A stretch of 42,964 bases of DNA from Candidatus Fibrimonadaceae bacterium (GTDB lineage: Bacteria > Fibrobacterota > Fibrobacteria > Fibrobacterales > Fibrobacteraceae), in contig JAITFO010000048.1 in the NCBI GenBank assembly GCA_031281265.1, forward strand, positions 1-42,964, given 5' to 3'. The position numbers and the translations under genes were made by a program. Of the stretch, positions 31,098 to 33,506 are shown piece after piece. Positions within the stretch are counted from its first letter, which is position 1. Every line of letters starts with the position of its first letter. Below the pieces are notes generated by a model. The model made no database searches, was not told where the DNA came from, and was given only the letters and a program-made list of their open reading frames with translations.

Positions 31098-32063
31098 TTA
31101 ATCCTTTACGCAACGAACACTTCGCGAGAAGTCCTTTGTGTAGTCAAGCCAGCTGACAAGCGTGTAGTTATAGCTCATGCTCATGCTGTATGCCTTGTCT
31201 CTACCGACCTCGCTGGCACTCCACAAGTTGCCGTAGTAGCCGATACCGTAGAAATTGCCTTCCGAATAGCCGCCGCCCGGCAGAGCCGCAAAACCAAAGT
31301 TATCCGTACCACCATCTTCGTTCCAGCCGTTAGCCGCTTTCAGCTTGGCTCCAGCTTCTGCGCAATGGCTATTGTCTTTGCAGCTCGGATTGACGAACTT
31401 CATCAAAACATTCCAATCAGCATTGCTTGGTATGTGCCAGCCACTGGGGCATATTCCTCTGTGCTTTGCATTTACTTGCGAAGCGCAACTACTGGATTTG
31501 CAGCTTGCATCCAGAGCCATTGCTGTCACCCAATCGTAAAGCCTGCCGTAGATTGCGCAGTTGGCGGGGTTATTGTTGTAGCATCTGCTACCCGCCACAT
31601 TATAGTCTAGGTTCTCCGCCATCCAAGTTTGAGTACCTATTTGCTTGGTTTTATAATTCGCTATGCTGTTACCTTTCTCAGTATAGCTACCGTCGCTCGA
31701 ATTGCCAATCTGAGATGAACTGCTGCTCTGCTGCAAGCTGGAACTGCTGGAATCGCCAATCTGAGACGAACTGCTGCTCTGCTGCAAGCTGGAACTGCTG
31801 GAATCGCCAAGCTGAGATGAACTGCTGCTCTGCTGCAAGTTGGAATTGCTGGAAGTGCCAAGTTGAGATGAATTGCTACTGTTCTGCCGCAAGCTAGACG
31901 AGGAATAATATTCCTCGTCCTCGCTGGAAGAGCTGCCAAGCCCGAATATATCTTCCAAGCCGTGTTCGCCGCAAGCGGTGAGTGTGAGTGTTATGGCAAG
32001 TGCTATGGTTGCTAGTTTTATGATGGGGCAGGCTGACCCTGCCCGTACGACGATGCTTTTCAT
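31098..32063 (-). CDS. FISUMP-domain lipoprotein with Ser-rich repeat linker
   Basis: A 321-residue protein. The signal ends ALAITLTLTAC, with acidic residues soon after the Cys. Residues about 40-125 are a Ser/Gln linker built from a 17-residue repeat (SQIGDSSSSSLQQSSSS). Residues 135-321 are the Fibrobacter succinogenes major paralogous domain: IGTQTWMAENLDYN, CYNNNPANCAIYGRLYDW, GICPSGWHIPSNADWNVL, FAALPGGGY, NLWSASE and the final RSVRCVKD. The function of this domain is unknown; it is related to C-type-lectin or FGE-like folds and is a taxonomic pointer. The protein is probably displayed at the surface. GGAG lies before the ATG. A TTGACG-17-TATATT promoter lies about 40 bp upstream. It heads the operon with the C10 protease. 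Confidence 0.92.
   Translation of the reverse strand: MKSIVVRAGSACPIIKLATIALAITLTLTACGEHGLEDIFGLGSSSSEDEEYYSSSSLRQNSSNSSQLGTSSNSNLQQSSSSSQLGDSSSSSLQQSSSSSQIGDSSSSSLQQSSSSSQIGNSSDGSYTEKGNSIANYKTKQIGTQTWMAENLDYNVAGSRCYNNNPANCAIYGRLYDWVTAMALDASCKSSSCASQVNAKHRGICPSGWHIPSNADWNVLMKFVNPSCKDNSHCAEAGAKLKAANGWNEDGGTDNFGFAALPGGGYSEGNFYGIGYYGNLWSASEVGRDKAYSMSMSYNYTLVSWLDYTKDFSRSVRCVKD
31707..31904. repeat. 51-bp tandem repeat, about 3.9 units
   Basis: Units at 31707, 31758, 31809 and 31860 (the last incomplete) encode the 17-residue Ser/Gln repeat of the FISUMP lipoprotein linker. The first two units differ at only one or two bases; later ones have more changes. The unit length is a multiple of three, so copy-number change keeps the frame. 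Confidence 0.9.
32026..32050. repeat. 25-bp palindromic element, copy 2 (in the FISUMP lipoprotein signal peptide)
   Basis: Same 25 bases as 31037-31061. Here the element encodes VRAGSACP, while in the protease gene it encodes RTGRVSLP. An extra C next to the element returns the two genes to the same frame for the shared KLA that follows. Confidence 0.8.
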
Positions 32064-32106
32064 TGGTTTATCTCCGTTTTTTGGTCAATAGTCATATTTT
32101 GAAAAA

Positions 32107-32135
32107 AATATAGAAAAAAATGACAAAGCCGTCAA
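32107..32135 (-). promoter_or_regulatory. Promoter of the FISUMP-C10 protease operon
   Basis: On the minus strand: TTGACG at 32135-32130, a 17-base spacer, and TATATT at 32112-32107. Both boxes and the spacing are close to the housekeeping consensus. The stretch 32117-32137, holding the -35 box and most of the spacer, is repeated exactly at 33486-33506. Confidence 0.7.
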
Positions 32136-32154
32136 GGGCAGGCTAAAAAATTTC

Positions 32155-32160
32155 TATATT
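32155..32160 (+). promoter_or_regulatory. -10 box upstream of the rpn-like gene
   Basis: TATATT in the context TTTCTATATTTCCC, the same context as before the phosphofructokinase gene. The leader to the ATG at 32234 would be about 67 nt and contains a small stem (CGCTC/GAGCG, 32176-32192) followed by a T-rich stretch. Confidence 0.4.
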
Positions 32161-32233
32161 TCCCTTTTCTACATTCGCTCTGCAAGTGAGCGGTTTTATT
32201 ATATCACATAAATTTTTTTCCACGAGGATTATT

Positions 32234-33121
32234 ATGCCTAAAAAGCTTCTTAAGCCGAAGTTTGCTCCGCTTACTTTGGACTCCACTTTCAAAAAAGCCT
32301 TTGCCAACGAGCAAAGCACGGAACTCCTTTTGTTCCTTCTTAATACATTCCTTGCCGAGAAGCTGAAAAGCCCTATCAAAGAGGTTATCAACATTAACCA
32401 CGAATTGTTTGGAAAAACGAGGTTCAATAGAGATGCTGTATTTGATGTTTATTGCAGAGATGCCACAGGTACAAGGTTTGTAGTGGAAGTTCAGGTTAAG
32501 GGGCAGAAACATTTTATTAAGCGGACTTTCTTTTATCTTTGTATGGTTGTATGCAGTCTTGCGGTGAAAGGGAAAGAGTATGATTTCAATATTCCAAAGC
32601 TCTATTCTATCAGCTTTTTGGAGTTTAACCATAATTTTGGGAAGGACTGCACGGAGGTTATTCAGTATTTGTCTCTTAGGAACGATAAGCACCCCGAAGT
32701 GAGCTATGATTTTCTGCAAATGATTTTCGTTGTTTTGCCTAGATTTAAGAAGAAGGAGAGCGAATGTGAAACAATTATGGATAAAATTCTTTTTTCTCTT
32801 AAAAACGGTCATAAGCTCAAATGTGTTCCCAAGAGTTTCAGGGAGAAGGAGCTTTTGCAGATTTTCAGGGTTGCCGAAATTTCTAATTTTACGGAGAGAG
32901 AACTCAAACAATATGAGGTATCTATGATGAACAGACACGACCAGAAAGCGATACTTGCTTATGCCAAGGAGAAAGGCGAGGCTAGGGGTTTGGTAAGAGG
33001 TAAGAAAGAAGGTATTCTGCAAACCGCCAAGTCTATGATTAAAGATGGGCTTGAACTTGAACGTGTGGCTCGCATTACTAAACTTCCTAAGAAACAGATT
33101 ATTGCATTTAGTAATGGTTAA
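32234..33121 (+). CDS. Rpn family recombination-promoting nuclease (PDDEXK_2)
   Basis: I chose the ATG at 32234 (295 residues), which has GAGG six bases upstream; the frame extends to 32186 without support. The N-terminus has the family's LDSTFKKAFANEQSTELLLFLLNTFL, and the nuclease core shows FDVYCRDATGTRFVVEVQVKGQ, the D and E-x-Q of the PDDEXK_2 site. Rpn proteins cut DNA and have been linked to RecA-independent recombination and, in some cases, toxicity or phage defence. The C-terminal 60 residues (AYAKEKGEARGLVRGKKEG, then a short helix-turn-helix-like end) are the part that in known Rpn genes can be made separately. A possible internal start is at 32924. Confidence 0.88.
   Translation: MPKKLLKPKFAPLTLDSTFKKAFANEQSTELLLFLLNTFLAEKLKSPIKEVININHELFGKTRFNRDAVFDVYCRDATGTRFVVEVQVKGQKHFIKRTFFYLCMVVCSLAVKGKEYDFNIPKLYSISFLEFNHNFGKDCTEVIQYLSLRNDKHPEVSYDFLQMIFVVLPRFKKKESECETIMDKILFSLKNGHKLKCVPKSFREKELLQIFRVAEISNFTERELKQYEVSMMNRHDQKAILAYAKEKGEARGLVRGKKEGILQTAKSMIKDGLELERVARITKLPKKQIIAFSNG
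32924..33121 (+). CDS. Possible internal start: C-terminal Rpn fragment (RpnS-like), 65 residues
   Basis: Two adjacent in-frame ATG codons (32924 and 32927) follow GAGG with a five-base spacer, well inside the rpn-like gene. Translation from here gives MMNRHDQKAILAYAKEKGEA through to the same stop. Short products from internal starts that block the full-length nuclease are known for some Rpn genes, and the next gene downstream encodes a free-standing protein of the same kind. The internal start itself is inference. Confidence 0.4.
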   Translation: MMNRHDQKAILAYAKEKGEARGLVRGKKEGILQTAKSMIKDGLELERVARITKLPKKQIIAFSNG

Positions 33122-33136
33122 GGAGAAATGATTATT

Positions 33137-33382
33137 ATGCCTAAAACGAAAACTAAAATTCCTGGATTTACGAAGAGGGAAATTAGGGGATGGATAAGAA
33201 TACAAAAAATAATGCGTGAGTATGATCGCCAAGCGCAAGAGGCTTATGCTAAGGAGAAAGGTGAGGCTAGTGGCTTGAAAAGAGTTGCCCGCAATATGCT
33301 TGCAAAGGGATATTCCGTTGCTGAAATTATTGGAATAACAAACCTCCCTCGTGAGCAGGTTAGGGCGTTGAAGCGAGCTTAG
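33137..33382 (+). CDS. Small stand-alone protein matching the Rpn C-terminal region
   Basis: An 81-residue protein starting 15 bases after the rpn-like stop. The ATG at 33137 is chosen because its context, ATTATTATGCCTAAAA, is the same as at the rpn-like start; an earlier ATG at 33128 sits too close to AGGAG. Residues from about 35 (AYAKEKGEASGLKR, then KGYSVAEIIGITNLPREQVRAL) align with the end of the Rpn protein, but the nuclease core is missing. It looks like a copy that kept the start region and the C-terminal part. It may be a separate partner or inhibitor of the nuclease, or a deletion relic that is still open. Confidence 0.65.
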   Translation: MPKTKTKIPGFTKREIRGWIRIQKIMREYDRQAQEAYAKEKGEASGLKRVARNMLAKGYSVAEIIGITNLPREQVRALKRA

Positions 33383-33403
33383 GCGAGCTGTTCTTACCCT
33401 GTT

Positions 33404-33506
33404 AATACGGGCACACTCCATTGCCAGCAAACGAATTGCCTATTCCTCCTCCCGCTACGGAAAATTCCTGAACTGTGAAATCCATAAAATGACAAAGCCG
33501 TCAAGG
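33404..33506 (-). pseudogene. Scar: FISUMP operon promoter fused to the 3' end of a C10 protease gene
   Basis: 33404-33486 copies the last 83 bp of the C10 protease gene (82 of 83 identical). 33486-33506 copies exactly the -35 box and spacer of the FISUMP-C10 operon promoter (32117-32137). Both are in the same relative order and orientation as in the intact operon, but the roughly 2.7 kb between them is missing. There is no start codon or signal peptide, so nothing functional is encoded. The gap between the small Rpn-like gene and the phosphofructokinase gene otherwise holds only the next gene's promoter. Confidence 0.8.

Follow-up and report, generated by a model that had tools for sequence, protein, structure and literature searches.

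Results

A nuclease gene followed by a small co-directional gene

The window, by which we mean the whole stretch of 42,964 nucleotides that was analysed, belongs to a 2.29-Mb draft genome of 120 contigs whose nearest relatives are Candidatus Fibrimonadaceae MAGs; by our reading of the isolate names, these MAGs are of termite-gut origin. It carries rpnL, a gene for a full-length Rpn-family nuclease that contains a well-supported internal start for its own C-terminal domain (RpnS), and a small gene, here called the twin, which codes for a protein resembling that domain (Table 1). The twin runs in the same direction as rpnL after a gap of 15 nt, which is the layout of a downstream RpnS gene (RpnS') as in rpnE-ypaA of E. 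coli. The rpnL stop codon lies at 33119-33121, and a second possible in-frame ATG at 33128 would extend the twin by three codons. We looked for a terminator between the two genes and found none. The preliminary description of this locus had reported a separate 81-codon gene from 33137 that begins in the same sequence context as rpnL, and both statements are correct: the coordinates were confirmed, and the two starts lie in a 17-bp exact repeat (32227-32243 and 33130-33146; self-BLAST E 6e-4).

Table 1. Positions of the features at the rpnL-twin locus within the window
Feature	Positions	Strand	Basis
rpnL, full-length Rpn-family PD-(D/E)XK nuclease, 295 aa	32234..33121	+	PF12784, TIGR01784, catalytic residues, AlphaFold2 model
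rpnL ribosome-binding site GAGG, 6 nt 5' of ATG	32224..32227	+	sequence; same context in paralogs
Internal ribosome-binding site GAGG with ATG ATG, for a predicted internal RpnS of 65/64 aa	32915..32929	+	sequence, relatives
Internal rpnS frame, tail type B, 20-aa repeat linker	32924..33121	+	tail comparison, AlphaFold2 model
Tail type B of rpnL, AKSMIKDGLELERVARITKLPKKQIIAFSNG, exchanged in comparison with paralog C29 (body 90% identical)	33026..33118	+	
252-bp segment without counterpart in the otherwise collinear paralog locus C29	33041..33292	+	
rpnL start context, 17 bp, exact second copy at 33130-33146	32227..32243	+	self-BLAST
Copy of the rpnL start context at the twin start	33130..33146	+	self-BLAST
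Twin, stand-alone RpnS-like ORF, 81 aa, tail type A, 12-aa repeat linker	33137..33382	+	
Tail type A of the twin, ARNMLAKGYSVAEIIGITNLPREQVRALKRA	33287..33379	+	tail comparison
19-bp exact direct repeat AATGACAAAGCCGTCAAGG, left copy beside the rpnL-twin unit	32119..32137	+	
19-bp exact direct repeat AATGACAAAGCCGTCAAGG, right copy beside the rpnL-twin unit	33488..33506	+	

The rpnL product matches PF12784 (E 7.5e-44) and TIGR01784 (E 9.3e-28), both above the curated cut-offs, which places it in the Rpn family (TIGR01784 / PDDEXK_2). In an alignment of 60 homologues, D71, E85 and Q87 are the same in every sequence, and D16 and R97 in nearly all. Residues D16, D71, E85, Q87 and R97 match D11, D63, E82, Q84 and R94 of RpnA, which were mutated by Kingston et al. 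2017 (PMC5350276), and give rpnL the PD-(D/E)XK signature. The AlphaFold2 model (pLDDT 89.4) consists of a nuclease core, a 50-residue helix and two short helices, and its nuclease-like fold gave weak matches to McrC, EndoMS and BstEII (best E 8.6e-3). PADLOC applied to the locus returned a weak match alone and no confident defence family. With its domain matches and intact catalytic residues, the gene is the Rpn nuclease that had been proposed. That the enzyme is intact at its catalytic residues is well supported; cleavage, toxicity and an anti-phage effect are predicted at most. Several rpn-family genes per genome were found in all 12 of the genus genomes searched.

The 19-bp repeat that flanks the rpnL-twin unit extends to 35 bp at 86% identity overall. 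Among the matches listed, its 18-bp core has four genomic copies, two here and two on C29, the contig with the closest rpn paralog. On the minus strand at 31098-32063 lies a gene for a predicted lipoprotein that has serine-rich repeats and, at its C-terminus, a domain similar to those of Fibrobacter paralogous-domain proteins. Sequence matching the 5' end of this gene (32002-32084) is also present beside paralog C29.

A conserved internal start in rpnL

Within rpnL, a GAGG motif at 32915-32918 stands 5 nt ahead of in-frame ATG codons at 32924 and 32927, and initiation at 32924 would yield a C-terminal product of 65 aa. The preliminary description had pointed out this internal start; its coordinates hold, and Met is conserved at the position across relatives of the rpnL subfamily. 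A Shine-Dalgarno match of at least 4 nt precedes 29 of 47 such internal Met codons versus 55 of 452 other internal Met codons (Fisher p 1.7e-13), and the Glu codon that forms the motif is GAG in 18 of 21 cases versus 914 of 2186 elsewhere (p 6e-5), both p values being optimistic because the genes are related. Such a preference for GAG is the expected trace of selection for an internal ribosome-binding site. rpnL carries both elements of an intragenic RpnS in its sequence, namely an internal ribosome-binding site and a start that gives the C-terminal domain. We regard it as well supported that this start is conserved and held under codon-level constraint, and its translation is predicted.

The predicted RpnS nature of the twin

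Over 80 aa, the twin is 36% identical to the C-terminal segment of its neighbour (E 3e-12). It matches the C-terminal positions 227-271 of TIGR01784 (E 4.5e-5), and the nuclease core is absent. A profile of these C-terminal domains matched the crystal structure of RpnA-S (PDB 7TH0) with an E-value of 4.2e-7. The AlphaFold2 model of the twin contains helices at residues 13-56, 61-68 and 72-80 and aligns with 7TH0 at a probability of 0.99 and an rmsd of 0.8 Å over 38 columns; the Foldseek E-value is weak (0.42), as can be expected of such a short domain. The twin thus resembles RpnA-S in having three helices, the first of them long and built of 4-residue repeats. RpnA-S is encoded only inside rpnA and its function has been demonstrated by experiment, whereas the twin is a stand-alone gene known from sequence and model. 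Together with the homology to RpnA-S, these features make the assignment of the twin to the RpnS domains well supported, as far as sequence and modelled fold can indicate. PF14261 (DUF4351) gave no match in the twin at E-values up to 10; this domain marks stand-alone RpnS proteins in some species and is hence not a strict requirement (Zhong et al. 2023, PMC10327210).

Two other origins of the twin were considered and rejected. A phage or virus origin was dropped, as the twin has no matches in phages or viral contigs. An assembly chimera or artefact is out, since an independent MAG (G008:C8) has the same junction: its rpn tail B, the sequence between the genes and the beginning of the twin match those of the window at 86% identity. 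In that MAG, the small frame stops after about 12 codons, beside a dispersed repeat, which indicates that the small gene is dispensable or can be lost there.

The twin differs from its neighbour in tail type and repeat number

Within its own genome, the twin is 41% identical to the C-terminus of its neighbour versus 53-61% to five other rpn copies, and so it lies closer to other paralogs than to the gene directly upstream. The last 31 residues, which form the two short helices, sort into types; the neighbour ends in type B and the twin in type A. The twin tail shares 29% identity with the neighbour tail versus 71-90% with type-A tails elsewhere, among them the tail of G008:C63 at 90%. The twin does encode a C-terminal segment without nuclease core, as described earlier, but the claim that it is the same short form as that of its neighbour is not supported.

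The long helix contains the four-residue repeats that characterise Rpn proteins. From a conserved Tyr-Ala to the tail there are 20 residues in the neighbour and 12 in both the twin and paralog C54, against 16 in C93 and 20 in C29 and C68, so that the twin helix is two repeats shorter than that of its neighbour (12 vs 20 aa). The two adjacent genes are thus unequal in repeat number, as are the E. coli rpnE pairs. In RpnC, inhibition is lost when a single repeat is added to just one of the partners, and there is no cross-inhibition between RpnA-S and RpnB-S (Zhong et al. 2023, PMC10327210). By the RpnC rule, the repeat mismatch implies that the twin should not inhibit its neighbour. The rule for repeats comes from RpnC as its single case, and that for tails is our own inference.

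Body and tail are incongruent across the genus

Positions 32002-33040 and 33293-33487 are collinear with the locus of paralog C29, and 252 bp are inserted between them. C29 lies in the same genome, is 90% identical in its body, and is a single gene that ends in a type-A tail and has the same 3' flank. The inserted segment covers the end of tail B with its stop codon, followed by a new start and the first helix of the twin. This collinearity suggests that the twin has kept the ancestral 3' end of an rpn gene and that the nuclease now has another tail.

Among 82 rpn genes, 66 pairs reach a body identity of at least 80%, and in 22 of these the tails fall below 45% identity; nine pairs with bodies below 55% identity have tails at least 75% identical. 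In one pair (L006 and L007), the bodies are 97% and the tails 15% identical. These comparisons indicate that tail swapping is general and widespread in these Fibrimonadaceae.

Adjacent RpnS-like ORFs are present at four of the 77 rpn genes with at least 250 nt of downstream sequence, in the window and in G009:C56, G002:C210 and G011:C143. The small gene has a tail unlike that of its neighbour in the first three, and a tail of the same type in G011:C143. The two-gene layout that the preliminary description had proposed to seek in relatives does recur at these loci, but the stub in G008:C8 shows a relative in which the small frame is not kept.

Further arrangements were noted. In G011:C52 (L171), a single rpn frame ends in two different serial tails, as if the stop between RpnL and RpnS' had been lost. 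Free-standing RpnS-type ORFs occur at L059 (G009:C71), L060 (G007:C7), L057 (G008:C81), L075 (G007:C51) and L135 (G001:C62, two ORFs), and no rpn nuclease core was detected within a few kb around each. L057, L059 and L060 retain the internal Met, preceded by GAGG or GAG. A uniform recombination boundary at ‘SNFT’ for the free-standing ORFs of the genus was dropped, as the boundaries span about profile positions 165-207.

Comparison with rpnE-ypaA of E. coli

Zhong et al. 2023 (PMC10327210) demonstrated RpnS antitoxins made from internal starts as well as RpnS genes that stand separately downstream (rpnE-ypaA, rpnC); they also found ypaA to be translated in K-12 and noted insertion, deletion and fusion of rpnS genes. 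The two-gene idea in general is therefore already published. K-12 ypaA, located 3' of rpnE, carries a pseudogene annotation. As in the window, rpnE-ypaA consists of a nuclease gene with an internal RpnS start and, 12-15 nt further on, a same-strand RpnS ORF, whose tail differs from that of the nuclease and is found inside the single-gene form. In three sampled strains that lack ypaA, rpnE ends in the ypaA tail (DNA identity 100% in two, 98% in the third) and the 3' flank is essentially that of ypaA; the rpnE body of the single-gene strain 127 is 98.8% identical to K-12 rpnE.

The repeat numbers of RpnL and RpnS' are unequal in K-12 and in all other two-gene E. coli genomes sampled, strain AREA_504 having been scored directly from its printed sequence. 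We rejected the explanation that equal repeat numbers are actively avoided: given the range of lengths observed, chance alone would produce only ~10% matches, and the mismatch shows only that the register is not maintained. Both the tail-type switch and the register mismatch in E. coli are tabulated here from public sequences. At least 80% of the rpnE-ypaA query is covered in 4763 genomes, a coverage that single-gene forms attain as well.

The two systems also differ. ypaA opens at the position that corresponds to the internal start and has a ribosome-binding site of its own, whereas the twin starts with a copy of the full-length start. The ypaA tail is clearly related to that of rpnE, whereas the twin and its neighbour share only 29% of theirs. 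Additionally, the nuclease belongs to PF12784 here and to PF04754 in E. coli (Kingston 2017, PMC5350276), both within TIGR01784/Rpn.

Discussion

We favour the reading that the window holds an RpnL/RpnS locus of known kind followed by a displaced RpnS' that is not the inhibitor of its neighbour and was left behind by a tail swap, and we give this about an even chance of being right. Recombination within the C-terminal domain would have replaced the type-A tail of the nuclease by a new one of type B, and the displaced type-A tail, provided with a copied rpn start, would have persisted as a small gene of its own. The change may have run in either direction, with a tail gained by RpnL or with RpnL and RpnS' fused by deletion. 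If translated, the twin would dimerise through its long helix with RpnL proteins that match it in repeat length and tail, C54 being the best candidate partner in its own genome. The role of the twin may thus be that of an orphan antitoxin to paralogs or of a spare tail cassette, and not that of an antitoxin to its neighbour, which is presumably restrained by its own internal RpnS. Expression and activity of the twin are predicted at most. The stub in G008:C8 and the G011:C143 small gene with the tail type of its neighbour speak against a displaced tail.

The main rival, which we consider rather unlikely, is that the twin is a functionless leftover from recombination among rpn genes, its frame open merely by chance. 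It would account for the 12-codon stub in G008:C8, a further stub at G008:C119, the many internally deleted rpn remnants across the genus and the rarity of adjacent RpnS-like ORFs (4/77). However, the 81-codon frame is intact, has GGAG upstream and a copied rpn start context, and is separated from rpnL by no terminator that we could find. Twin tail and related tails give dN/dS values of 0.15-0.45, from a small sample and with divergence that partly predates the twin, and E. coli ypaA is likewise called a pseudogene yet is translated (PMC10327210). The preliminary description had instead proposed that the twin supplies the neighbour's inhibitor a second time, from a gene split away from rpnL, and neutralises the adjacent nuclease. 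Adjacency, common direction, the 15-nt gap, the RpnS fold and the helix 1 residues partly common to both proteins are consistent with that model, as is the fact that E. coli makes the products of its downstream RpnS genes (PMC10327210). It is nevertheless disfavoured and in our view improbable, because the tail is of the other type (29% vs 71-90%), the helix is two repeats short (12 vs 20 aa) and a relative retains a mere stub; known RpnS proteins moreover fail to cross-inhibit (RpnA-S and RpnB-S) or lose inhibition through one extra repeat (RpnC; PMC10327210).

In restriction systems, target-recognition domains are exchanged. By the same token, the tail and the twin could be HTH-type DNA-recognition or regulatory modules, such that a swap alters DNA targeting and the twin acts as a DNA-binding regulator or competitor; we hold this to be the least probable account. 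Both tails give weak HTH matches and structural matches to serine-recombinase HTH domains were obtained, and the variable tail has been proposed to set DNA preference (Kingston et al. 2017, PMC5350276). RpnS, however, acts through protein-protein binding (PMC10327210), and we found no evidence of DNA binding for RpnS.

A broader extension of the displaced-tail reading is possible, though on balance doubtful: RpnS' genes may be tail cassettes, such that the nuclease exchanges its tail, and with it the built-in antitoxin, whenever RpnL and RpnS' recombine, while the displaced tail persists as orphan immunity. If so, a swap would alter which partners recognise each other, and immunity would act against paralogs that still carry the displaced tail. 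The window would then represent one two-tail state, and E. coli rpnE would show both states in one species. In CDI/Rhs polymorphic toxins, displaced C-terminal modules lie 3' of the gene, and recombination shuffles the tails. Their orphan toxin-immunity modules are compared here by analogy only, with no homology claimed. Unlike in CDI/Rhs, the Rpn tail is itself the antitoxin, so that toxin tail and antitoxin would be swapped jointly.

The antitoxin of an Rpn system is encoded inside the toxin, and a change of specificity must therefore alter both together. The incongruence of bodies and tails and the paired single- and two-gene states suggest a route, in which whole tails are swapped and old tails persist as genes. 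Downstream RpnS copies thereby become a testable question, namely whether a given copy fits its neighbour, a paralog or no partner at all.

Repeat elements were also seen near some of these loci. The dispersed repeat TCTGAACCCCGATNNCCCCGATT occurs in L056 (G008:C8) at 389-411 and in L183 at 722-744 and 1814-1836; it sits at the end of the twin stub in G008 and on either side of the rpn gene of G002:C85. Exact copies among the matches listed number nine in the genome of the window, 41 in G002 and 28 in G007. Directly 3' of the truncated rpn locus in L056, at about 650-1200 on the minus strand, lies a probable reverse transcriptase gene, with an RYVDD-like motif recognised by eye.
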